Below are positions 480-23,617 of a stretch of 64,000 nt of DNA, piece after piece. Position 1 is the first letter of the stretch, and each line of letters opens with the position of its first letter. The notes below the pieces were generated by a model. That model searched no databases, was not told the DNA's origin, and saw only the letters and a program-made list of their open reading frames with translations. Source of the DNA: Flavobacteriales bacterium (GTDB lineage Bacteria; Bacteroidota; Bacteroidia; Flavobacteriales_D; Crocinitomicaceae); contig JABXHO010000050.1 in NCBI GenBank assembly GCA_013373595.1, positions 1 through 64,000 on the forward strand, given 5' to 3'. A program made the translations under genes and the position numbers.

Positions 480-3431
480 ATGAAACAATTTCTTTCCATT
501 CTTGCTGTCGCATTCTTTGCGTTAACTTCTAAGGCACAAGATCTTCGCATCATCAAAGACAACATCAATTGCTCGTATGGATTAAAAGATAAACAGGGCA
601 ATTGGGTCATCGAACCGATGTATACCCTCATCCAAGAATACAATTCGGGTTATTTTCTCGTAAAAGATCCTCTGGGTGATGGAATTTTAACGCCTTCGGG
701 TAAGTGGTTGGTTCCCTGTGAGTACGATCGTTTTGATGATGATCTTTCAACCTGGGAATTACTCTATGATTACGGATACAGCACAGCTAATCAACGCAGA
801 ACAAGCAAAGCCTTTTTCCTTATAGGAATAAAAGGAGACGAAAAACAGCTTATCAATTCGCAGGGGAAGGTCATTTACACCGTAGATGCGAAAGCTGAAC
901 TTGAGCGCGACAACGAAGCGCACTTTTTAATTCGTGAAGGCAATCCAGTGAATACAACGTACATCGATACTTCGGGGAGTATATTGATCGATAAGTTCTC
1001 AGGGGCAATTCTTCCCTTTCGAGAGCGTGATTACACCTTGCGCAGTAATTCCACAACAAATTACGGGAAGATTGCAGAGGGAGATGTCCGATTAATCAAT
1101 CAAAAAGGAGAACTTCTCAGTGATAAAGTATTCGATAGGGCAATGTTGATTTTGCGTGACCGCATTTCATTTGAGGTCGATGGTAAACACGGAATAATGG
1201 CGCAGGATGGAACGGTACTCATTGAACCTAAATATCGATGGGAAACAGGACTAGGGAATTCTGGCGAGAGTTGGGTAATTCTTGATGAAAATGGGCGCAA
1301 GGGAATTATGAAATCAACGGGGCAGGTATTAATTGAGCCACTCTATGATGCACTGTATAAACTCAATGGAGCCAACAATCAGCAAGAAGGATGGATGGTT
1401 GAGAAAGAAGAAAAGAAGGGAGTAATTGATGTGTATGGAAACAGGGTCATTCCTTTGAAATACGATAAAATCATCACTTTCTATCCCTATCATCAGAAGC
1501 ATCGATTGATAAAAACAAACTTTGTGGTTTGGAAAGGGGATAGCATCGGGTATATTCGTCCAGAGGCGAGTAATGCTCCTAAGAAGTTTTACACATATCT
1601 TGAGCCAGTTTCGGATTACAATTATAGCTACAAACATTCTGTAGGATTTGGCTTCATCATTAAAGAAAATGGGAAATATGGCATTCTGGACGCATACGGC
1701 ATGCCTTTTTTGGAGTGCGAGTACGATGAAAGTTTAAAACGCAAAACCACTGATCAGCGTTATTGGTTCATAAAGGGACGTGAACTTGTTGAGTTTGCAT
1801 TCAATATCAATAAGATTGAAAAGCGTGAATGGGACACTTTTTTGGAGATGGAAGACGAAGCAGTGTATTATTTTAAAGGACTGTACGAAACAGCACAGTT
1901 ATCGTCGGATCGGACGAGAATTGTCTCCATCAGTAAAGAGAATTATGTATTCACGAAATACGGGAATATGTTCGTGGTAAATCGTGATGCTAAAGGGATT
2001 TTGAATATTTACAATCACGTCACGAGAAAAAAGATCAATCTCAGGAATATTCTGTACATCGAGGAACCTACGCAAAATCGTTTTGTGATTCGAACGGGTT
2101 CCAATCATGCTGGAGTTGTTGATAAAAATGGAAAGATCATTATTGATACGATGTACACTACGATGGATATTCAGAATGGCGGATTGCATATCTGGGCCTC
2201 ACAACCGTACTCGAACAGTGGATACAAATGGCTGTTGTTGGATAGCAATGGTGTGCAAATAGTCAAAGCACATTTTGATCAATCGTTTAGAATCAATTCG
2301 GGAGATCAGATCGTGAAAGATGGGTATAAAACGGGATTGATGGATACGAAAAACCTAAAATGGAAGATCGTACCAACCCATCCCTGTTTGTACAAGATGG
2401 TGGATCAATATTACGCAACAATCACGAAGGAAAGAAAGAAAGGAGTTGTTCGTGCAGACGGAAAGTATGTGATTGAGCCGATTTACGATACGGTTATTTT
2501 ATTAGCTGGAAATGCAACCATTAACGGGAATGTTCGAAAGGGGGAGGCGCCTGAGTTCTATTGGTTAGTACGTCGAGGAAATCGGGAGTTAATGATTGAT
2601 CAGGATGGAAAAATCAGTTGGTTAAATGCCATTCGTTCGCTGAAGGAATCGTTGTTGTTTACAGATACATGGGTGATGAAATCCTATAACCAAATCTGGA
2701 ATTTCCCTGTACTGAACTATGCGCCATCACTGCACTTTTTGAGAGGATTGTCTCCCGAACAAGTTCAAGAGAAAAAGTCAGCTTTATGGCAGAACGTAAA
2801 AATTAAATCGGTCATTTTTGACACCATTAACAATGAGTGGGAAGCAAGAAAAGTCAATTGCAATCAAGGGAACCCGACCTACGGATGGGTAACAACGCAA
2901 ACGACTGATAAAAAGATGAATGAGCTCTTGGAAATGTGCCAATGTGCAGTACGAAACAGGTATGGAGGCAGTGGGGGAACGGTAAGTTACAAGTTGATGT
3001 CAGTCGGTTCCAAGTTTGCGACACTCGCAAAAGAGTATCCGCATTACTCTGCAGGTTGGCGACATCATATTTCCCAAGCTCCAGTTGCAAGTCCAACAGA
3101 CGAATATTGGAATTTTGTTGATAGAGATGGTGTCATAAAGTCAATTGAATTAAATGATATCTTTCCGAACAACGCGACGCTAATGGACGAATTTATTGAA
3201 GCACTTCAACAACGAGATGAACTCAAACTGGAATGTTCTTCGGTGGAAAATATGCTAGAAATGGTACGCGGAAGATTCAGGTTGACGGAAGATGGTGTCT
3301 CGCTGTACTTGGATCGAAGTCGCACGAGCATATACGAAGCGTACAGTCCAATTGAACTCTATATTCCACTGGAAAATCTATTAAAGCACGAGGAATCGAA
3401 ATGGATAGTTCCTATTCTAAAAGCAGAGTAA
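480..3431 (+). CDS. Secreted WG-repeat protein
   Basis: A 983-residue protein with a clear Sec signal peptide (about residues 1-20, cleavage after SKAQ). The mature protein is built of WG-type repeats, in which a segment like YGLKDKQGNWVIEP or HGIMAQDGTVLIEPKY recurs many times through the first two thirds. These repeats are about 30-50 residues long and give a beta-rich, probably propeller-like or solenoid fold. No catalytic motif is visible. The C-terminal third (from about residue 700) has no repeats that I recognise. The ATG lies in the same 15-base context as the next gene's start (AAACGTATGAAACAA), and the two genes are 34 bases apart, so they are probably cotranscribed. The family has no agreed biochemical role; a surface or periplasmic binding role is only a guess. 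Confidence 0.85.
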   Translation: MKQFLSILAVAFFALTSKAQDLRIIKDNINCSYGLKDKQGNWVIEPMYTLIQEYNSGYFLVKDPLGDGILTPSGKWLVPCEYDRFDDDLSTWELLYDYGYSTANQRRTSKAFFLIGIKGDEKQLINSQGKVIYTVDAKAELERDNEAHFLIREGNPVNTTYIDTSGSILIDKFSGAILPFRERDYTLRSNSTTNYGKIAEGDVRLINQKGELLSDKVFDRAMLILRDRISFEVDGKHGIMAQDGTVLIEPKYRWETGLGNSGESWVILDENGRKGIMKSTGQVLIEPLYDALYKLNGANNQQEGWMVEKEEKKGVIDVYGNRVIPLKYDKIITFYPYHQKHRLIKTNFVVWKGDSIGYIRPEASNAPKKFYTYLEPVSDYNYSYKHSVGFGFIIKENGKYGILDAYGMPFLECEYDESLKRKTTDQRYWFIKGRELVEFAFNINKIEKREWDTFLEMEDEAVYYFKGLYETAQLSSDRTRIVSISKENYVFTKYGNMFVVNRDAKGILNIYNHVTRKKINLRNILYIEEPTQNRFVIRTGSNHAGVVDKNGKIIIDTMYTTMDIQNGGLHIWASQPYSNSGYKWLLLDSNGVQIVKAHFDQSFRINSGDQIVKDGYKTGLMDTKNLKWKIVPTHPCLYKMVDQYYATITKERKKGVVRADGKYVIEPIYDTVILLAGNATINGNVRKGEAPEFYWLVRRGNRELMIDQDGKISWLNAIRSLKESLLFTDTWVMKSYNQIWNFPVLNYAPSLHFLRGLSPEQVQEKKSALWQNVKIKSVIFDTINNEWEARKVNCNQGNPTYGWVTTQTTDKKMNELLEMCQCAVRNRYGGSGGTVSYKLMSVGSKFATLAKEYPHYSAGWRHHISQAPVASPTDEYWNFVDRDGVIKSIELNDIFPNNATLMDEFIEALQQRDELKLECSSVENMLEMVRGRFRLTEDGVSLYLDRSRTSIYEAYSPIELYIPLENLLKHEESKWIVPILKAE

Positions 3432-13753: not shown

Positions 13754-14614
13754 ATGAAAGGAATTATTCTGGCCGGTGGATCTGGAACACGTTTGCATCC
13801 GCTAACGCTTGCTGTGAGTAAACAACTCATGCCTATTTACGATAAACCAATGATTTACTATCCGCTTTCTGTTTTGATGGCGGCAGGAATCAAAGATATA
13901 TTGATCATTTCAACTCCACACGATCTCCCCAACTTTCAAAAACTCTTAGGTGACGGAAAAGAATTGGGGTGTAATTTCGAGTACGCTGAACAGGTAATTC
14001 CCAATGGACTGGCGCAAGCATTTGTAATCGGTGAAGAATTTATTGGAGACGACAAGGTAGCGCTCATTCTGGGAGATAATATCTTCTACGGAGCAGGTAT
14101 GGGTAATTTACTCAAAGAAAATGCAGATCCCGAGGGAGGTGTTGTTTATGCTTACCATGTGAGTGATCCAGAACGATACGGTGTGGTGGAGTTTGATGAT
14201 GAGATGAACGCTATTTCCATCGAGGAAAAACCAGAAACACCTAAGTCTAATTTTGCAGTTCCAGGATTGTATTTCTACGATAATTCAGTTGTTGAAATTG
14301 CGAAAAATCTTGAGCCTTCAGCTCGTGGCGAGTATGAAATCACCGATGTAAATGCGGAGTACTTGCGTAGAGGTCAGTTGAAGGTGGCTGTGATGAATCG
14401 TGGAACAGCTTGGTTGGATACAGGAACATTCCCTTCGTTGATGCAAGCTGGACAATTTGTTCAGGTGATTGAGGAACGACAAGGACTCAAAATTGGTTGC
14501 ATCGAAGAAGTGGCATACCGCAATGGATTTATCACTGCAGAGCAATTGGAAGCGTTAGCAAAACCGCTGCTAAAAAGTGGTTATGGCGATTATTTGATGA
14601 GCATTCTTTCGTAA
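13754..14614 (+). CDS. rmlA: Glucose-1-phosphate thymidylyltransferase
   Basis: 286 residues; makes dTDP-glucose from dTTP and glucose-1-phosphate, the entry to dTDP-rhamnose and related cell-surface sugars. The nucleotide-binding loop [11 protein letters not shown] is at residues 8-18, followed by [17 protein letters not shown] and the catalytic/metal site LGDNIFYG near residue 110. It belongs to the short RmlA form (about 290 residues) with Mg-binding Asp residues conserved. No other rml genes are adjacent; the next gene is an isoprenoid synthase whose ATG shares one base with the rmlA stop (TAATG). Confidence 0.93.
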
Positions 14615-15579
14615 TGGATATAAAAAAATACACGGCGCTCATCGATGGAGAGTTGAGCCAAATTGGTTTCCCTGATTCCCCGAATCAATTATACGATCCC
14701 CTTCGCTATTTTTTGCAGATAGGAGGGAAGCGCATTCGCCCCATGTTGACCTTGTTAGGAGCTGAACTTTTTGGTGGAACCTACGAAAAGGCAATGTCGC
14801 AGGCATTGAGTATAGAAGTGTTCCATAACTTCACCTTGATTCATGACGATATCATGGATGAAGCGCCGTTGAGAAGAAATTTCCAAACAATTCACGAAAA
14901 GTGGAACCGAGATGTCGCTATTTTATCAGGAGATGTCCTGATGATCAAAGCATACCAATTACTCGGGCAAATTGAGGGGAAACTGCTTCCTGATGCCTTT
15001 GCTTTGTTTAACAAAACAGCAATTGAAGTGTGTGAAGGTCAGCAAATGGACATGGATTTCGAACAACGCTCTGATGTTACCATTGACGAATACATTGAAA
15101 TGATCCGCCTGAAAACTTCTGTTTTGTTAGGGTGTGCCCTAGAAATGGGAGCAATTGTTGCGGAAGCCTCTTCGAATGATCGTGCATTGATTTATGACTT
15201 CGGTCAACACATTGGGATTGCCTTCCAAATTCAAGACGATATCCTCGATTTGTATGCGAACCCAGATAAGTTTGGGAAGCAAGTCGGAGGAGATGTTATC
15301 GCCAACAAAAAAACAATGTTGCATTTGACAGCCGTTCAGAATGCTACAAAAGAACAATTGGAAGTTCTTAAGCAATTGCAGAACGAGGACAATGTTGAAC
15401 TAAAGGTAGATCGAACTCGACGACTTTTTGATCAACTAGACATCCGTTCGCTATGTGAAGCGCGCATGCAAGAACATTACGATATCGCGATGCAATCTCT
15501 TGCAAAAATCGAAGTAGAAGAAGCACAAAAAGCAAAACTCATCGGCTTGGCTAATTTCTTAATGAATCGAGAGGTTTAG
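14614..15579 (+). CDS. Polyprenyl (long-chain trans-isoprenyl) diphosphate synthase
   Basis: 321 residues from the ATG at 14614, which overlaps the rmlA stop. Hallmarks are GGKRIRP at residues 37-43, the first Asp-rich motif DDIMD at 78-82 and the second DDILD at 208-212, each binding Mg-diphosphate, plus KTSVLLGCALEMGA. The enzyme condenses IPP onto an allylic primer. The sequence does not say whether the product is geranylgeranyl-, hexaprenyl- or octaprenyl-diphosphate; in this phylum such genes feed menaquinone side chains or carotenoids. An in-frame upstream extension into rmlA is rejected because it adds residues the family lacks. Confidence 0.9.
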   Translation: MDIKKYTALIDGELSQIGFPDSPNQLYDPLRYFLQIGGKRIRPMLTLLGAELFGGTYEKAMSQALSIEVFHNFTLIHDDIMDEAPLRRNFQTIHEKWNRDVAILSGDVLMIKAYQLLGQIEGKLLPDAFALFNKTAIEVCEGQQMDMDFEQRSDVTIDEYIEMIRLKTSVLLGCALEMGAIVAEASSNDRALIYDFGQHIGIAFQIQDDILDLYANPDKFGKQVGGDVIANKKTMLHLTAVQNATKEQLEVLKQLQNEDNVELKVDRTRRLFDQLDIRSLCEARMQEHYDIAMQSLAKIEVEEAQKAKLIGLANFLMNREV

Positions 15580-15638: not shown

Positions 15639-16355
15639 TTATCTTTTTTGTAGGATTTTATCCAATACTTCGTCTTTATCGAGCTTTTTGGTGCAGAAGA
15701 ACCAATCTTTACAATCGAGGTCTTCATCTTCCATTCGGTCTTTTGCGGTACCACAAGAACCTGCAGGTCCAATAATGACGTCATCTCCCGGTTGCCAATC
15801 TGCTGGAGTAGCAATATCGAATTCATCGGCCGCCTGCAACGCGATAATCACACGGTACAACTCGTCAAAATTTCTTCCCAAACTGAGTGGGTAGTAAATA
15901 ATTGATCGAATAATTCCTTTTGGGTCGATGAAGAATACGGCACGAACGGCTTTCGTTGTATCTTCATTCGGTTGAATCATTCCATACTTTTTCGCAACAT
16001 CCATGGTGATGTCTTCGATTAATGGGAATTTGACATCAACGTCTTTCATTCCTTTGTATTCAATCTTTTCCTTAATCGTTCTCAACCACGCAATATGACT
16101 GTACAAACCATCGATGGATAATCCAACCAACTTACAGTTGGCATTCGCAAACTTATCTTCCATCGTAGCGAAAGTCATGAACTCTGATGTACACACAGGT
16201 GTAAAATCTGCTGGGTGACTAAAAAGAATAACCCACTCGCCTTCATAATCCGCTGGAAAGTTGATTTCTCCTTGCGTTGTAACGGCTGTAAATTCGGGTG
16301 CTGTATCGCCTATACGTGGCATGCTAAACACTTCTTGTTCTATATTTTCTTCCAT
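15639..16355 (-). CDS. Peroxiredoxin, Prx6/1-Cys-like subfamily
   Basis: 238 residues (227 if the second Met at residue 12 starts the protein). The peroxidatic cysteine is Cys55 in FTPVCTSE, followed by the conserved EFMTFATMEDKFA. The Prx6-type C-terminal domain contains IRSIIYYPLSLGRNFDELYRVI and LQAADEFDIATPADWQPGD. Three further cysteines lie near the end (GSCGTAK, DLDCKDWFFC), so a resolving cysteine is possible and strict 1-Cys chemistry cannot be assumed. It reduces H2O2 and organic peroxides in the cytosol. Upstream is a palindrome shared with the sulfide:quinone oxidoreductase gene, which suggests redox or oxygen control. Confidence 0.88.
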   Translation of the reverse strand: MEENIEQEVFSMPRIGDTAPEFTAVTTQGEINFPADYEGEWVILFSHPADFTPVCTSEFMTFATMEDKFANANCKLVGLSIDGLYSHIAWLRTIKEKIEYKGMKDVDVKFPLIEDITMDVAKKYGMIQPNEDTTKAVRAVFFIDPKGIIRSIIYYPLSLGRNFDELYRVIIALQAADEFDIATPADWQPGDDVIIGPAGSCGTAKDRMEDEDLDCKDWFFCTKKLDKDEVLDKILQKR

Positions 16356-16522: not shown

Positions 16523-17104
16523 GTGATATTGACGGAACAAGAATTCATACGATGTGCACAACGCAACAAGGATGAGGCATTCGCTTATCTCACAGATGCC
16601 TATGCGCAAAAGGTGTATGGAAGTTGTTTGCAAATGCTCCGAAATACAGAAGATGCGGAGGATTTGGTGCAAGAAGTGTTTACCTCGATCTATCTCTCGC
16701 TGGATTCATTTGGAGGCAAGTCAAAACTGTCGACATGGATTTACGCTGTAACGCAGAATAAAGCCAAGGAATTTCTTCGTAATAAGAACCGATTGAAACG
16801 AAAAGGGTCGTTGACGGTTTTGGACGAATATTCGGAAGGTTTTAGTGGTGCGACCATCAATTTCAATCATCCTGGAGTGCAACTAGAGGATAAGGAAAAG
16901 GCACAGGTGTTATTTCGTGCAATTGATTCACTAGCAGAAAATCAAGCGGAGGCATTTCGTTTAGCGAAGATTGAGGGATATAGCTACGCGGAGATTGCTG
17001 AGATGATGGAGTTAAGTGTATCATCAATAGAATCACTTTTGTTCCGTGCAAATAAACGTTTACGGATCATTTTGGGAGATTTCTACAATAAAAGTAGATC
17101 GTGA
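16523..17104 (+). CDS. ECF sigma factor of the copper/redox operon (CnrH-like position)
   Basis: 193 residues, starting at GTG 16523. Region 2 is CLQMLRNTEDAEDLVQEVF then STWIYAVTQNKAKEFLRNKNR (about residues 35-95). Region 4 is SLAENQAEAFRLAKIEGYSYAEIAEMMELS with the VSSIESLLFRANKRLR helix (about 130-185). It heads a run of five coupled genes: a one-TM protein, a membrane-anchored helical Spy/CnrX-like protein, an MbnP-like protein and a di-haem MbnH-like enzyme. The sigma/one-TM/periplasmic-sensor order matches the logic of the CnrYXH metal-resistance regulator, so I infer metal-responsive control of the downstream genes. Confidence 0.9.
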   Translation: MILTEQEFIRCAQRNKDEAFAYLTDAYAQKVYGSCLQMLRNTEDAEDLVQEVFTSIYLSLDSFGGKSKLSTWIYAVTQNKAKEFLRNKNRLKRKGSLTVLDEYSEGFSGATINFNHPGVQLEDKEKAQVLFRAIDSLAENQAEAFRLAKIEGYSYAEIAEMMELSVSSIESLLFRANKRLRIILGDFYNKSRS

Positions 17105-17144
17105 GCGCAAGATTTTGAATAAAAGAACAACAAAAGAACTAGAT

Positions 17145-17423
17145 ATGAAGGAAGAACAACAATGGATTGAGGACATCGTTTCGGTTTCGGAGAGAATCAA
17201 AACTCCTGAAATTCCAATGGATGTGCTTCAACGGATTAAACAGATTCCATCGAGAGCTAAATCAACGGTGGATTTGGTACCAAAACGAACAATTTGGTTG
17301 GTGGCGGCAAGTATTGCTGCGCTTGTTGCAATTAATATTTATGCTTCGCGCACTACGCAAACAACCAACGAATCAAGTAATTCATTTGGAGAAACTTATT
17401 TCTCTCATTTAAAACAATTGTAA
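17145..17423 (+). CDS. Small one-TM protein, probable anti-sigma factor
   Basis: 92 residues from the ATG at 17145. About 48 cytosolic residues (QQWIEDIVSVSERIKTPEIP...LQRIKQIPSRAKSTVD) precede a single TM helix at about residues 50-66 (IWLVAASIAALVAINIYA). A periplasmic tail of some 25 polar residues follows. This size and layout is that of CnrY-type anti-sigma proteins, although primary-sequence similarity to CnrY cannot be judged here. It lies 40 bases after the sigma gene and its stop overlaps the next gene's ATG (TAATG). Confidence 0.65.
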   Translation: MKEEQQWIEDIVSVSERIKTPEIPMDVLQRIKQIPSRAKSTVDLVPKRTIWLVAASIAALVAINIYASRTTQTTNESSNSFGETYFSHLKQL

Positions 17424-17857
17424 TGGAACGCAAGAGATTGTACAAACTTATCATCGCTGTACTGGTAATTCTCAATATTGGGTTAGTGGCCTTTATGTTT
17501 TTATCCAAACCTCCGCATCCTGGTCCACCACCCCATGAAGGGATTCTGGCGCGTGAGCTAGGGATTGAAGGGCAGTATGTAGCGAAGATTGATGTCTTGG
17601 AAAAAGAGCATCATCGAGAGAAGCAAGCCTTGATGAAAAAAGACCGCGAATTACATGAAACGCTGTTTTCGAAGATCGGAACGGATGAAGATGTTACTTC
17701 GCTCCAAGCGGAAATTGAAAAGAATCATGCACAGATCGAAAAAATAACCTATGATTTCTTTAATGAGGTAGCGATGTACTGCACAAAGGAACAGCGCGCT
17801 GAACTCAAGGAAACGATCTATCATGCGTTTCATCAAATGAGAGGACCAAGAAGGTGA
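17423..17857 (+). CDS. Membrane-anchored periplasmic metal-sensor-like protein (Spy/CpxP/CnrX type)
   Basis: 144 residues: an N-terminal TM anchor (about 9-27), a Pro/His-rich linker (SKPPHPGPPPHEG), then an all-helical hairpin domain. Candidate metal ligands are His63, His64, His78, His102, Cys120, His134, His137 and Met139, the last three lying in YHAFHQM at the end. The Spy/CpxP/ZraP/CnrX superfamily consists of such helical hairpins that bind Ni, Co, Zn or Cu, or act as chaperones. Being placed after sigma and anti-sigma genes, this one most resembles CnrX in layout. Its GTGA end overlaps the start of the MbnP-like gene. Confidence 0.7.
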   Translation: MERKRLYKLIIAVLVILNIGLVAFMFLSKPPHPGPPPHEGILARELGIEGQYVAKIDVLEKEHHREKQALMKKDRELHETLFSKIGTDEDVTSLQAEIEKNHAQIEKITYDFFNEVAMYCTKEQRAELKETIYHAFHQMRGPRR

Positions 17858-18486
17858 GACAAAGTCTTTTTATAGGTCTCTTTGTGTGGATGTCGTCTTT
17901 CATACACGCCCAAAAGGAAATTCAGTTCGACTGTACGTCTCACCAACTGACGGAAGGATATGAGATTTCTATTTTACGGTTTTATGTGTCGAATATTCAA
18001 GTCAAAAGTACCGATGGACGTTGGTATTCAGATCAGGTTGATGCTCATCTCATCGACAAGGAAGTTCCCAGTTCTTGGACTATTTCTCTTGTTGATTGTC
18101 CTAAAAATCTGGACATCGATTCTGTAGTGTTTGTACTCGGCACCGACAGTTTGACAAATGTTTCCGGTATCCTAGATGGAGATTTAGATCCGATCAAAGG
18201 AATGTATTGGTCGTGGAATTCGGGGTATATCAATGTGAAAGTGGAAGGAAAAGAACAAGCAACGAATACTGCTTTTGAATATCATTTGGGAGGATATCTA
18301 CCACCGTTTTCGACGGCAAGAGAAATTCGATTAAAGACTTCAACTGCAAATTCACTACGCATTTCGGTTGACGTATCTCGATTTTTGAAAAATGCCAAGG
18401 TAGAAGAGAGGTTGGAGGTAATGATTCCAGGACCTGAGGCATCGAAATTGTCTAGTCACTTATCAACTTGTTTTTCGATTGATTAA
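17854..18486 (+). CDS. mbnP: MbnP-family copper-binding protein
   Basis: 210 residues, GTG start overlapping the previous stop, signal peptide about 1-20 (ending IHAQ). Family marks are the early FYVSNI strand (43-48), VFVLGTDSLTNVSG (92-105), LDPIKGMYWSWNSGYI (111-126) and FEYHLGG (141-147). Three mature cysteines (27, 82 and 207) are also present. In methanotrophs, MbnP binds copper only after its partner MbnH oxidises one tryptophan to kynurenine; that is established for the family. That Trp119 or Trp121 of the WSW motif is the substrate here is my inference. The di-haem gene directly downstream overlaps this one by 8 bases, which is the expected pairing. Confidence 0.82.
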   Translation: MRQSLFIGLFVWMSSFIHAQKEIQFDCTSHQLTEGYEISILRFYVSNIQVKSTDGRWYSDQVDAHLIDKEVPSSWTISLVDCPKNLDIDSVVFVLGTDSLTNVSGILDGDLDPIKGMYWSWNSGYINVKVEGKEQATNTAFEYHLGGYLPPFSTAREIRLKTSTANSLRISVDVSRFLKNAKVEERLEVMIPGPEASKLSSHLSTCFSID

Positions 18487-19498
18487 ATTATCATTCATAG
18501 CATTCCTGATTGGAGCAGTGTCATTTTCTGCTCTTGACGAGAATTGGTTGAGTCCATCACAACGTGCACAAATCGATTCTTGGCCTGATCCTGTGTATAA
18601 TTTTGCAGAAAATCCGATTTCCGAAGATGGATTTCAGCTAGGACGTAAATTGTTCTATGATCCGATGCTCTCGCGAGACCAAACAATTTCCTGCGCAAAT
18701 TGTCATCTTCAATATACAGGCTTTACGCATGTAGACCACGCAGTCAGTCATGGAATTGAAGGAAGAAAAGGAACGCGCAACTCGCCTGCTCTAATCAATC
18801 TAGCATGGAATTCTTCATTTCATTGGGATGGAGGAGTCAACCACCTCGACGTGCAAGCAATCAACCCCATCGAACATTTCGCAGAAATGGATAATACCTT
18901 GGAAAACGTACTGAATTATGTAAACGGAAATCCAGAATATCGATCTGCTTTCTTTCATGCTTTTGGAGATTCAATGGCTACGAGTAAAACCTTGCTCAAA
19001 GCCTTTTCTCAATTTACGACTTCTCTTGTTTCATCCGATTCGAAATACGATCAATACATACGCGGAGAAGTGGGTTTTACTGAACAAGAAAAAAATGGAT
19101 TGAGGCTATTCGACAATTTTTGCAACAGATGTCATACGGCGCCACTTTTTAATTCAAATCGATACGCAAGTAATGGTTTGCCAATTGATACGATGTACAA
19201 CGATGTAGGACGCTACGCAATTACAAAACAGGGAAGCGATTCACTTCAATTTCGAATTCCCACATTGAGAAATATCGAGCATACTTATCCGTACATGCAT
19301 GACGGTAGATTCCGAAAATTGCGTGAGGTAGTGAAGCATTACGCGGAAGAATTGGATCGATCCAATCCGTATCTCAGTGAAGAACTGAAGTCAGAAATGA
19401 AGTTGAGCGAAAACGAACAAAAAGACCTGATTGCCTTCCTGTGTACACTGACCGATCGAACTTTTTTGTACAACCGCAGGTATAGTTTTCCAAATTAA
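18479..19498 (+). CDS. mbnH: MbnH/MauG-like di-haem cytochrome c peroxidase family protein
   Basis: 339 residues with a signal peptide (about 1-18). Two haem c sites are visible: CANCH at residues 72-76 and CNRCH at 215-219. The family motifs LGRKLFYDPMLSRDQTISC, GTRNSPALINLAWN (including a Trp) and FRIPTLRNIEHTYPYMHDGRF are present. The start is a TTG at 18479 inside the end of mbnP; the first ATG in frame comes only after residue 60, so TTG (or a rarer start) must be used. Partner MbnP is immediately upstream. Known members either detoxify H2O2 (CcpA) or oxidise a protein tryptophan (MauG, MbnH); the neighbour decides for the latter here, by inference. Confidence 0.85.
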   Translation: MIKLSFIAFLIGAVSFSALDENWLSPSQRAQIDSWPDPVYNFAENPISEDGFQLGRKLFYDPMLSRDQTISCANCHLQYTGFTHVDHAVSHGIEGRKGTRNSPALINLAWNSSFHWDGGVNHLDVQAINPIEHFAEMDNTLENVLNYVNGNPEYRSAFFHAFGDSMATSKTLLKAFSQFTTSLVSSDSKYDQYIRGEVGFTEQEKNGLRLFDNFCNRCHTAPLFNSNRYASNGLPIDTMYNDVGRYAITKQGSDSLQFRIPTLRNIEHTYPYMHDGRFRKLREVVKHYAEELDRSNPYLSEELKSEMKLSENEQKDLIAFLCTLTDRTFLYNRRYSFPN

Positions 19499-19557
19499 TT
19501 TCCATCGACCGCAAGTTTGATCTTCTCTTGGTCACTAAATGGATAAATCAATAAACT

Positions 19558-20919
19558 ATGAAGAAGAAAACGTCACTATTTATATTGCTTGCTTTTTCTA
19601 GCACTGCTTTCGCACAAAGTCCATCGATTACTTCCTGGCTTCAAAATACGACAGCAACGGGATCATATTATATGTCTGGAAATTCAACAGCGATCGATAA
19701 TGGAATCGAGGTGAACTGTCAACAAGTTGAATACTCAAATGATTGGGTCTACATTTCAACGCATGGAATTCCATCGTACCCGACAGGTCCTTTCCTGGAT
19801 GGTAACCCTTCGCAAGCTGAAGACCAAGATGTCATTTATCAATTTCCGTTGATTCCGACACCGAATACAGGAACGCCAACCGAAACGACACCCGGCAATG
19901 TCGGAGTGTTTATCAATGGAGTGTCTTTGTTTGATTGGAGAGACGGAGCGGCTTGGGATCCAAGTTCCAATTCATTGTGTGGAGGACCTGGAAATCCGCC
20001 TTGTCCTGGTGGTCCAGCAGCGACTCAGGTGTGGAATCGAGACGCTGTACCTGCGGAAATGGCAGGATTTGATTGCTCGAAAGGACACCCTGCAATGGGA
20101 AATTACCACCATCATCAGAATCCTTCTGCGTTTAAGTTGGATTTAAATGTGATTTCTTCGATTTGCAATCTCTATGATGCTGATGGCTTGTACGCGATTG
20201 ATTCGACCGAACATTCTCCACTTATCGGTTTCGCTTACGATGGATACCCAATTTACGGTGCTTATGGTTACGTAAATGCGAATGGTACAGGTGGAATTAC
20301 GCGCATGAAATCAGGATATGAATTAGCAAATTATACAGTACGAACACATTATCCTGATGGAACAGATGTGGATGACGGACCAGCGGTTGATGCCACCTAT
20401 TTCTTGGGATATTTTAGAGAAGATTATCAATGGGTAAGTCATCCATCCGAAGATTATTTGGATGAACACAACGGACGTTTTTGTGTGACGCCTGAGTATC
20501 CCAACGGAACCTACTGTTATTTCGCTACGGTGGATGAAAACTGGAATTCGGCTTATCCATACTCAGTGGGGCCAACCTTTTATGGGAATGTTGTGGCGGG
20601 AACAGTTACCAGTGTTTCCGAACCAACAACCGTATATGAAGCAACAAGTTCTCTTGATGAGGACGCCTTCGACGAAATGAATATTCAGGTGTTTCCGAAT
20701 CCAGCAACGGATCTTATTGCCGTTCAAGTATTGGACTTAGTACAGGAGGATTTGACGATTGAACTCATTGATGTTTCAGGAAAAACAATTAGTGAAATGA
20801 TCATTCTACCAGGAAGTACCATTGCTTATTTTGATGTGCAGTCGGTGTATGCTGGAAATTACTTCATTCGAATATCGAACCAAAAATTCGAGCGAACAAC
20901 TAAGATAATCATAGAGTAA
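19558..20919 (+). CDS. YHYH-domain protein with T9SS sorting domain
   Basis: 453 residues: signal peptide about 1-20, a long YHYH-type domain (about 25-355), and a C-terminal T9SS type A sorting domain (about 375-453, starting MNIQVFPNPATD). The naming motif appears as NYHHHQNPSAFK (182-193), with GHPAMG just before and IGFAYDGYPIYGAYGY (223-238) after. The function of YHYH domains is not established; the histidine cluster and acidic residues make metal binding plausible. It lies 59 bases after the di-haem gene on the same strand and is probably part of the same copper/redox set, delivered to the cell surface by T9SS. Cysteines at 54, 141, 149, 173 and 203 could form disulfides. Confidence 0.82.
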   Translation: MKKKTSLFILLAFSSTAFAQSPSITSWLQNTTATGSYYMSGNSTAIDNGIEVNCQQVEYSNDWVYISTHGIPSYPTGPFLDGNPSQAEDQDVIYQFPLIPTPNTGTPTETTPGNVGVFINGVSLFDWRDGAAWDPSSNSLCGGPGNPPCPGGPAATQVWNRDAVPAEMAGFDCSKGHPAMGNYHHHQNPSAFKLDLNVISSICNLYDADGLYAIDSTEHSPLIGFAYDGYPIYGAYGYVNANGTGGITRMKSGYELANYTVRTHYPDGTDVDDGPAVDATYFLGYFREDYQWVSHPSEDYLDEHNGRFCVTPEYPNGTYCYFATVDENWNSAYPYSVGPTFYGNVVAGTVTSVSEPTTVYEATSSLDEDAFDEMNIQVFPNPATDLIAVQVLDLVQEDLTIELIDVSGKTISEMIILPGSTIAYFDVQSVYAGNYFIRISNQKFERTTKIIIE

Positions 20920-20939: not shown

Positions 20940-20976
20940 AAAAGGCCCTGTTTTGCATTAGCGAGATGGGGCTTTT
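20940..20976. terminator. Two-way terminator between the YHYH gene and folA
   Basis: AAAAGGCCC and GGGCTTTT pair with one bulged G around a 20-base loop and are followed by an interrupted T-run on the plus strand. The right arm reaches into the folA stop codon, so the hairpin serves both convergent genes. Confidence 0.65.
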
Positions 20977-21481
20977 ACTTTTTCGTATAACGAAGAACAG
21001 TAAAACTAGCATCATGTCGATCGTCTTTGGGTTGTTCCAATATAGATTCGACGTTCCAATTTTTGAGATCAAACGCAGGGAAAAATGTATCCGCTCCGTA
21101 CGAATGATTGATGTGCGAAATGTACATCTCTTCAACGGCATCTAATTCCAAGGCTTGACGGTAAATTTCACCTCCACCAATAATGAAAACCGTACGTTCT
21201 GTTTCGGACTCGTAATGATTTAGGAAAGCTTCCAACGAATGAAATACCTCGCAACCTTCAGCTACATACGATTCATTCCGTGTGAGCACAACATTTTCTC
21301 TATTCGGAAGTGGACGGTATTTTTCAGGGATCGATTCATAATTCTTGCGTCCCATCACCACGATGTGTCCAGAAGTTGTTTCTTTGAAAAAACGCATATC
21401 ACTGGGCAAGTGCCACATCAAATCATTGTTTTTTCCAATTCCACGGTCTAAGTCCATGGCAACAATCAACGATACTTTCAT
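20975..21481 (-). CDS. folA: Dihydrofolate reductase
   Basis: 168 residues, the normal size. It opens with SLIVAMDLDRGIGKNNDLMWHLPSDMRFFKETT, in order the cofactor strand, the Met20-type loop and the helix carrying the substrate-binding acid (Asp in SDMRFF). VVMGRKNYESIP and the NADPH-binding VFIIGGGEIYRQAL follow. It regenerates tetrahydrofolate, needed after thymidylate synthase acts. Its ATG overlaps the stop of the capA-like gene by 4 bases (ATGA), and thyA begins that transcript, so supply and use of the folate cofactor are kept on one message with a foreign-looking gene between them. Confidence 0.96.
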   Translation of the reverse strand: MKVSLIVAMDLDRGIGKNNDLMWHLPSDMRFFKETTSGHIVVMGRKNYESIPEKYRPLPNRENVVLTRNESYVAEGCEVFHSLEAFLNHYESETERTVFIIGGGEIYRQALELDAVEEMYISHINHSYGADTFFPAFDLKNWNVESILEQPKDDRHDASFTVLRYTKK

Positions 21482-22887
21482 TCCGTTATAGTTTTGATTC
21501 CGTCAGGAGTCACCAATACAACCGATAAGCCCTCAACACCACAATCGCGAAGAAAGTTCTTGTGTCCATTTGCCATAGATTGATCGTAATACATCCCCGA
21601 TAAATAATTCCGATTCCCTTTCAAATCAACCGTTCGATGGAAATAATGTCCAAGCAGATCATCTGCGAGCATTTCCGGTCCGTTCGTTCCTACGCGAACC
21701 GAGTAATAATGAGTGAGCATTTGTTTGAACGCGCGCCCAATGCTCGATTCGGGATCAACAATGGATTCTTTTACGTCTCCTTTGTTTTCTGCAGCGTACA
21801 ATTTTCGACTGTCCGAAAAGAAATCCGACATACGTTGAGCTTCCACAGAGGAAACAAATCCCGTACGATAAGTGTTGTAATCGAATTCAGGAAGGATGTA
21901 GTACTGTGTAATAGCACCTTCTTTTCGTTTCATTACATACACGAAGTGATAATTCACATCACCTAAAATCATCTCCCCATTTTTCTTTTCGATGTGTGCT
22001 CCGAGCATAACACCTCCGCGCGTCGTGCGTGTTTGCATGTTCGAAACGAAGTTCCCGAGCGACCAAATAGTCAATTTATCTTCTCCGCGAACTTCTTTCT
22101 TTTCGATTGGTTGTACCACGTGTGGATGTCCACCAATGACCATATCCGCACCAGCACGGTAACAAACGTCTTCGTAGATTTTCTGGTACTTATTCGGCAA
22201 CGGTTTGTACTCCGTTCCCCAGTGCATATTACATACGATGTAATCCACGTTCATCGATTTCGCTTTGGCAATGTCTTGTTTGATCACAACGCTATCAATG
22301 TAATTAATGATGAGCGGCTTCGGAACCGACAAGCCATTTGTTCCGTACGTGTAATTCAACATGGCTACTTTGACGCCATTTTTCTCTACAATTAACGGGT
22401 AGTTCTCGTCGCGTTCTTGTTGATTTCTGAAGGTTCCTGTATGCGGTACACCGAGTTTGTCCAGTACGTCCAGGGTTCGAATAACACCTTTCGATCCGCG
22501 ATCGCATGAGTGATTGTTCGACGTTAAAATCACATTGAATCCAGAATTTACCAGTACTTCCGATAATTCATCAGGAGCAGAGAACTGCGGATATCCTTTG
22601 AATGGTTTTCCGGCTTGTGTCACTTCCAGATTGGCTACGCGAATATCGTATTGATTAATGATCGGCTTCACAAATTTGAATCCGTCATCGTATTCGTAGT
22701 CTTTCGTTCTGGAATTGTAAGCAGCTTCAATCTGACCGTCATGCTGCATAACATCTCCTACGAAGATCATTGAAAGTTTCTGATTCTCTTGTCCAATGGA
22801 GGAAAAAGAGAGAAAAAGGAGACTAAACAGCCACAACAGCCTTGATGTGCGGGTGCGGATCGTAGTTGAGTAGTTCAAAATCTTCAT
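21478..22887 (-). CDS. CapA-family (PGA_cap) metallophosphatase-like secreted protein
   Basis: 469 residues from the ATG at 22887, with signal sequence [16 protein letters not shown] ending SIGQ. The PGA_cap/CapA domain fills residues about 35-310: [55 protein letters not shown] and [13 protein letters not shown]. These Asp, Asn and His residues form the metal site of calcineurin-like phosphoesterases. CapA/PgsA proteins serve in poly-gamma-glutamate capsule assembly, but many homologues have no known substrate. The start overlaps the end of thyA by 65 bases in another frame and the stop overlaps folA, so expression is tied to both. Confidence 0.85.
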
Positions 22888-23617
22888 ACTTAAACGCGAA
22901 TATGTCATTTACTTCTGGATTGATTTTCATAGTTGGCAATGGACGAATGTCTCTGCTTAACTGCAATTTGGCTTGTTCCAAATGATTGTTGTAGAGGTGT
23001 GCATCACCAAAAGTATGAACGAAATCACCGGGTTCAAGGTTACATACTTGCGCCAACATCATTGTTAATAATGCATAAGACGCAATGTTGAACGGAACTC
23101 CGAGGAACGTGTCAGCACTTCGTTGATAAAGCTGGCAGCTCAATTTTCCATCAGCTACGTAAAACTGAAATAGTGTGTGACAAGGAGGTAGCGCCATGTT
23201 GTCAACATCAGCAACGTTCCATGCAGAAACAATGTGTCTACGCGAATTCGGATTGTTTTTCAAGTTGTCGACCAACTTCGTAATTTGATCAATCGTTCCA
23301 CCGTGCCCATCAGGCCAGCTTCTCCATTGATGTCCGTAAACAGGACCCAGATCACCATTTTCATCTGCCCACTCATCCCAAATACGCACCTTGTTTTCTT
23401 TCAAGTACTTGATATTTGTATCACCTTGCAAGAACCAAAGCAATTCATGAATGATTGAGCGAAGGTGTAATTTCTTCGTTGTTACCACAGGGAAACCTTC
23501 CGACAAATCGAAACGCATTTGATATCCAAAAACAGAAATAGTTCCCGTTCCCGTACGATCTCCTTTTTGAGTTCCGTTATCTAAAATATGTTGAAGTAAG
23601 TCGTGATACTGTTTCAT
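22823..23617 (-). CDS. thyA: Thymidylate synthase
   Basis: 264 residues, the same length as E. coli ThyA. It methylates dUMP using methylenetetrahydrofolate and releases dihydrofolate. The nucleophile is Cys146 in [14 protein letters not shown]; other marks are RTGTGT at 21-26, [11 protein letters not shown] near 124-134, and [20 protein letters not shown]. The C-terminus IKAVVAV closes the active site. It is the first gene of thyA-capA-folA on the minus strand; its last 22 codons also encode the capA start in another frame. Confidence 0.97.

Follow-up and report, generated by a model that had tools for sequence, protein, structure and literature searches.

Most known copper sites that contain kynurenine come from methanotrophs, in which they have a link to methane oxidation. 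In MbnP of Methylosinus, the first Trp of a WxW motif is reportedly converted to kynurenine, and Cu(I) is said to be held by a His, a Met and a solvent ligand, with the kynurenine nearby. Two other methanotroph systems, MopE/SACCP and CorA/CorB, likewise pair a kynurenine-containing copper protein with a MauG-like di-haem enzyme (PMC3912023, PMC3621798); the sequences of MopE and CorA show no marked similarity to that of MbnP (PMC3621798). A different kind of system, CnrYXH of Cupriavidus metallidurans, comprises an extracytoplasmic function (ECF) sigma factor, a short protein with one transmembrane segment and a membrane-anchored periplasmic helical protein; its two sigma-dependent promoters, cnrYp and cnrCp, precede the operon itself and a second, internal gene, respectively (PMC9045368). 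Here we analyze a 64,000-nucleotide stretch of a Crocinitomicaceae genome (Flavobacteriales bacterium, assembly GCA_013373595.1, contig JABXHO010000050.1, positions 1 to 64,000; hereafter the window), in which a six-gene locus joins predicted counterparts of both kinds of system to a YHYH protein bearing a sorting tail of the type IX secretion system (T9SS). Judged from gene order and promoter motifs, the three modules form a conserved operon and are not chance neighbours. Each part was known before; the predicted promoter is new. The initial annotation of this DNA was not aware of any description of such an operon, and we found no such combination in the literature searched, which did not extend to the genomic-neighbourhood section of the 2021 PNAS paper on MbnP.

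Open reading frames (ORFs) and profile matches place all six genes where they had been annotated, on the plus strand between 16523 and 20919, in the order ECF sigma factor, one-transmembrane protein, Spy-like protein, MbnP, MbnH and YHYH protein (Table 1). The sigma factor probably starts at TTG 16529, as the ORFs of relatives open with 'LTEQEF'. A gap of 40 bases separates the first two genes, the next three junctions overlap by 1, 4 and 8 bases, and 59 bases lie between MbnH and YHYH. The small overlaps stand as first described; the 59 bases are more than plain spacing and hold a predicted promoter of their own.

The MbnP/MbnH pair resembles that of Methylosinus trichosporium OB3b (GenProp0940; PDB entries 7l6g and 6e1c) in the adjacency of the genes, in family membership (PF20243 with a di-haem enzyme of the cytochrome c peroxidase (CCP)/MauG family), and in its WxW motif, conserved Met and His, two CxxCH sites and axial Tyr. 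MbnP passed the gathering score of PF20243 (131.2 bits against 27) and did not reach that of the equivalog model TIGR04052 (34.7 bits, cut-off 140). MbnH stayed below the cut-off of TIGR04039, still its best NCBIfam model (205.8 bits, cut-off 362.85), and because neither equivalog cut-off was reached we place the pair in a divergent branch. Searches of PDB sequences with an MbnP profile, and with a paralogue from the same genome, gave no matches; only a fold search succeeded. There the AlphaFold2 (AF2) model of MbnP (predicted local distance difference test score, pLDDT, 90.5) matched at E ≤ 0.001 only the six chains of Methylosinus MbnP 7l6g (E = 1.5e-6, template-modelling score 0.54 on the query), which are some 80 residues longer than the window protein. 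In an alignment of relatives, Met117, Trp119, Gly124 and His144 are each present in 135/135 sequences and Trp121 in 134/135, so that both Trp residues singled out by the initial annotation proved conserved. These residues fit the set that we take to be the Methylosinus ligands. By analogy, Trp119 would be the expected kynurenine precursor, and Met117 and His144 possible copper ligands. The best PDB sequence match of MbnH is MbnH 6e1c (E = 1.9e-41), and its CxxCH motifs at residues 72-76 and 215-219, Trp110 and Tyr288 occur in all 131 sequences aligned. Extended alignment puts Tyr288 at what appears to be the position of axial Met275 of Pseudomonas CCP and of the Tyr of MauG, giving the combination that marks the MauG/MbnH type: two CxxCH haem sites and an axial Tyr instead of the peroxidase Met. 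Conservation at these positions supports the view that the pair still has the residues that such kynurenine and copper chemistry would be expected to need. Unlike the Methylosinus pair, it lies under an ECF sigma factor and a Spy-like sensor, is linked to a T9SS-exported YHYH protein, and has no methanobactin genes or TonB receptor in its operon; nor has a sigma trio or YHYH gene been reported with the copper-repressible MopE and CorA. MbnP is encoded twice more in the same genome. One copy (G000:C24; L003:242-1045) has a lipoprotein signal and an MbnH of its own; the other (G000:C155; L001) is truncated by a contig end and follows a gene for a membrane-type protein with a CxxC motif. Within the available flanking DNA, the trio was seen beside neither.

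The trio had been described as CnrHYX-like, and in layout it does resemble that system. The one-transmembrane protein has a cytoplasmic part of about 45 residues and a periplasmic tail of about 22. It matched no Pfam family, and an NCBIfam anti-sigma model only at E = 0.06; its size and single transmembrane segment fit a short anti-sigma factor, for which we consider it a candidate. The third protein scored 24.7 bits against PF13801, below the curated gathering score of 29.2, and its family name is therefore tentative. No sequence link of this sensor to CnrX was detected: its profile weakly matched Spy (3oeo) and a VirG-like structure (5ihf) at E values of 0.01-0.016, and no CnrX was among its PDB matches. 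One His (His63) and one Cys (Cys120) are conserved, each in 84 of the 88 sequences aligned, a set that appears to differ from the metal ligands of CnrX (His/His/His/Met). The resemblance to CnrYXH is thus one of layout and should be read as an analogy only. Gene order differs as well (sigma-antisigma-sensor in the window, Y-X-H in CnrYXH), and the predicted targets are MbnP/MbnH and surface proteins in place of an efflux pump.

The YHYH protein scored 181.4 bits against PF14240 (cut-off 25), and its tail 43.5 bits against the sorting-domain family PF18962 (cut-off 27). With both profiles over their cut-offs, as for other T9SS-exported YHYH and CotH (PF08757) proteins of Bacteroidota, and with a predicted promoter shared with the sigma gene, its earlier assignment as an exported surface component of the operon gains strong support from sequence. 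YHYH proteins are 55-80% identical across most relatives. To our knowledge no function has been assigned to the family, and the AF2 model of the window protein was poor (pLDDT 50), so that we derived none from it.

A co-occurrence search of the kind first proposed for this locus showed that the module order recurs well beyond this genome. BLAST detected MbnP in 99 of 150 genomes of the family Crocinitomicaceae, and neighbourhood maps revealed the full order, from sigma factor to YHYH, in about 40 family loci. Records of Flavobacterium, Saprospiraceae, Chitinophagaceae-type and other Bacteroidota showed an identical order in 80 named loci; cultured carriers include F. swingsii, F. paronense, F. 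psychrotolerans and F. lotistagni. When neighbours were clustered at 137 MbnP loci, a count that includes several genomes present in both collections, MbnH adjoined MbnP at 133, and the neighbourhood contained YHYH at 108, the Spy-like sensor at 89 and the sigma gene at 83. From these distributions, MbnP, MbnH and YHYH form the steadier core, and the trio is a regulatory head that is present in some loci and absent from others. No signal was found for pairing of the trio with YHYH along the MbnP tree. Longer MbnP paralogues of about 260 residues (L081, L086-L089) adjoin MbnH and have neither trio nor YHYH; association with the operon is therefore confined to one part of the MbnP family. Two loci (L265, L267) from genomes of the same genus that lack MbnP carry the trio followed by an undescribed protein of 535-595 residues, T9SS-tailed in L265.

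Evidence for copper comes from the MbnP/MbnH family itself and from the contents of related operons. A T9SS-tailed multicopper oxidase lies inside the operon in 11 loci, mostly of Flavobacteriaceae, accompanied in 10 of them by a thioredoxin/AhpC-like protein; in L131, L134 and L139 both genes sit between MbnP and MbnH. In a survey of other bacteria, MbnP/MbnH-like and AhpC_TSA genes were likewise found within copper operons (PMC9426467). This context supports a link to copper, and copper excess and copper need both fit it. Operons with such multicopper oxidase and thioredoxin/AhpC-like genes also include those of L136, L129, L096, L153 and L160.

Self-regulation, which the initial annotation had predicted, is supported at the sequence level by an ECF-type promoter motif common to the sigma and YHYH genes. 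Gibbs sampling on 62 dereplicated sigma upstream regions yielded a two-box motif, refined to GCAAGTTT-N16-CTAA(A) with the window YHYH site in view. The pattern occurs only twice in the window, before the sigma gene and before YHYH, against 0 expected by chance. For such a pair of sites, at the operon itself and at a second gene, cnrYp and cnrCp offer a precedent (PMC9045368). In family loci, after removal of near-duplicates, it was present at 11 or more of 12 positions in 13 of 41 YHYH and 7 of 39 sigma upstream regions, as against 0/53 for MbnP, 0/55 for MbnH and 0/335 for other ORFs. Because the Gibbs consensus was derived from sigma upstream regions, the YHYH result in relatives serves as an independent check; there, all sites matching at 10 or more of 12 positions lie 46-57 bases before the start codon. 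Some genomes have the site between the sigma and one-transmembrane genes instead, and other lineages have related yet different boxes, such as GAAGGATT...CGTCTAAC before YHYH in L059 and L104. We do not claim that promoter and sigma factor co-vary, since a private motif fitted to each locus scored no better between sigma and YHYH upstream regions of one locus (mean 11.4) than across loci (11.2) or after shuffling (11.1).

Motif copies outside the operon point to a wider regulon. The genome that contains the window has one further exact core copy (C104:20912), 46 bases before a T9SS-tailed CotH gene; one-mismatch copies were fewer than those of a reversed control pattern, and we therefore interpret exact copies alone. 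Across the whole genomes of 23 relatives, an exact, longer form of the motif occurred 29 times and the reversed control 12 times. Inspection of the downstream genes placed 26 of the 29 copies within 119 bases upstream of trio, YHYH, CotH, ASST-CotH or VTC genes: YHYH (7), sigma factor (4), one-transmembrane protein (5), CotH (2), ASST followed by CotH (5), an ORF of 244-246 residues followed by CotH (2), and VTC-DUF4956 (1); the other three copies had no assigned gene. At the VTC-DUF4956 copy (L255; G131:C65), a gene with a VTC domain (polyphosphate polymerase family) precedes DUF4956 and the motif lies 119 bases upstream. CotH also lies within the operon itself in three loci besides those of Flavobacterium lotistagni and Flavobacterium sp. 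CYK-55, so that this family is reached by two independent routes, a shared promoter and a shared operon. From these motif copies, the same sigma switch appears to activate genes for secreted surface proteins at other sites in the genome. Taken together, the copies support autoregulation and a predicted regulon that includes T9SS surface proteins and is wider than first seen (CotH, ASST and, in one genome, VTC). No regulatory link of YHYH or CotH to an ECF sigma trio was found in the literature searched. In L203, a His-rich, lipoprotein-like methyltransferase gene (2573-3304) diverges from the CotH gene, and CotH is immediately followed, on the opposite strand, by a cation-efflux (CDF) gene.

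We propose that the locus is a self-amplifying envelope metal-response operon, with a kynurenine-copper site in MbnP and with surface proteins, a reading that we consider reasonably probable. In this model, the Spy-like inner-membrane protein would signal the presence of a metal in the periplasm (most likely Cu(I) that is in excess or in the wrong place) to the one-transmembrane anti-sigma factor, which would then release the ECF sigma factor. Free sigma factor would transcribe its own operon from P1, YHYH from P2 and the unlinked CotH gene, through GCAAGTTT-N16-CTAA. MbnH would oxidize Trp119 of MbnP to kynurenine, which, with Met117 and His144, would form a site for Cu(I) in the periplasm. 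The exported YHYH and CotH proteins may act at the cell surface, perhaps by binding or immobilizing metal, and would be joined in relatives by the ASST protein and a secreted multicopper oxidase.

Several observations weigh against this model. The strict NCBI models for MbnP and MbnH were not reached, and the window operon has no multicopper oxidase that we could find. Presence of the trio is patchy along the MbnP tree, with 34 changes where shuffled labels gave 40.4, and some of the absences are contig ends. Of the 71 family genomes that have the sensor, 23 carry their best sensor orthologue away from MbnP; in three of these (G058, G118, G070) YHYH comes directly after the trio, and MbnP and MbnH are missing. 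Five genomes of the same genus (G038, G052, G075, G135, G147) have the trio without MbnP, MbnH or YHYH. Finally, MopE and CorA, which are functional analogues, are made under copper scarcity (PMC3912023), contrary to what a response to excess would give.

This last point bears on the possibility that the operon serves copper supply and not defence. It would then be switched on by copper scarcity or by the demand of surface or periplasmic copper enzymes for the metal; MbnP would carry copper to secreted copper proteins, for instance the multicopper oxidase of related operons, and the Spy-like protein would sense an apo state or folding instead of excess metal. The copper-repressible MopE and CorA (PMC3912023) would fit such a role, as would the multicopper oxidase and thioredoxin-like genes lodged between MbnP and MbnH in three loci. 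Against it stand the lack of a multicopper oxidase in the window operon and the behaviour of CnrX-type sensors, which answer metal excess in the Cnr system (PMC9045368), and we regard it as unlikely. We assign a similarly low probability to the idea that envelope stress, or a different metal, is the signal for the trio, which would drive a surface programme of YHYH, CotH and ASST, with MbnP/MbnH as an optional passenger that has a function of its own. The eight genomes with the trio and no MbnP speak for it, with motif copies found beside the trio and upstream of CotH or ASST, and so do two genomes of the same genus in which sigma factor, one-transmembrane protein and sensor are intact: MbnP is interrupted in G018 (L049), and in G091 (L082) it is only a fragment and MbnH is missing. 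That the trio is kept without MbnP/MbnH in several genomes means that in some lineages the signal may be something other than copper. In 48 of the 71 family genomes, however, the best sensor orthologue lies within 5 kb of MbnP, and the overlaps of 1-8 bases tie MbnP/MbnH expression to that of the sigma factor. Chance adjacency of unrelated neighbours, for which we found nothing beyond the patchy presence of the trio, is very improbable given the order conserved across Bacteroidota families and a shared promoter that also precedes unlinked genes, and we reject it on the co-occurrence at 137 loci, the genome-wide motif copies and the YHYH-upstream motif counts relative to controls.

Around the operon, a polyprenyl synthetase gene (14497-15579) lies upstream, as it does in about 20 related loci, so that the locus is partly syntenic; the divergent peroxiredoxin gene at 15639-16355 is not conserved beside the operon in neighbourhood maps. 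The minus strand at 20975-23617 holds a PGA_cap (PF09587) gene between genes for dihydrofolate reductase-like and thymidylate synthase-like proteins; as called, the ORFs of PGA_cap and thymidylate synthase overlap.

Table 1. Genes, residues and predicted promoters of the operon, in window coordinates.
Feature	Position	Strand	Evidence
Predicted promoter P1, upstream of sigma gene: CGCAATTTTTTCAAATCAAAGGCCACTAAA	16472..16501	+	motif from Gibbs sampling; 0 expected in 64 kb
ECF sigma factor	16523..17104	+	Sigma70_r2 E=1.7e-15, Sigma70_r4_2 E=2.7e-15, TIGR02937 107 bits; conserved first gene of trio
One-transmembrane protein (92 residues), candidate short anti-sigma factor	17145..17423	+	position and transmembrane segment conserved
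Membrane-anchored Spy/Metal_resist-like periplasmic helical protein, candidate metal sensor	17423..17857	+	PF13801 E=2.8e-5, sub-threshold
MbnP family protein, signal peptide, no lipobox	17854..18486	+	PF20243 E=5.6e-38
M117-Y-W119-S-W121, WxW motif of MbnP	18202..18216	+	residue conservation
His144 of MbnP, possible copper ligand	18283..18285	+	invariant, 135/135
MbnH/MauG-like di-haem enzyme	18479..19498	+	CCP_MauG E=2e-50, 172 bits; TIGR04039 E=8.6e-61
Predicted promoter P2, in 59-base gap before YHYH: CGCAAGTTTGATCTTCTCTTGGTCACTAAA	19510..19539	+	same motif before YHYH in relatives
YHYH protein, signal peptide, T9SS type A sorting tail (~20689-20913)	19558..20919	+	PF14240 E=2.4e-53, PF18962 E=4.1e-11

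Here an MbnP/MbnH pair is found in non-methanotroph Bacteroidota, under an apparently metal-responsive sigma factor. The predicted promoter allows the regulon to be read directly from genomes, and provides a regulatory setting, open to test, for the uncharacterized YHYH family and for secreted CotH and ASST proteins. The operon occurs in several cultured species of Flavobacterium, so that bench experiments can settle the role of copper. More broadly, we consider it quite possible, if somewhat short of probable, that a Bacteroidota-wide ECF regulon couples periplasmic metal sensing and a kynurenine copper protein to a T9SS surface layer (YHYH, CotH, ASST and, in some lineages, a multicopper oxidase), and would thereby constitute an undescribed extracellular system for handling copper or minerals.

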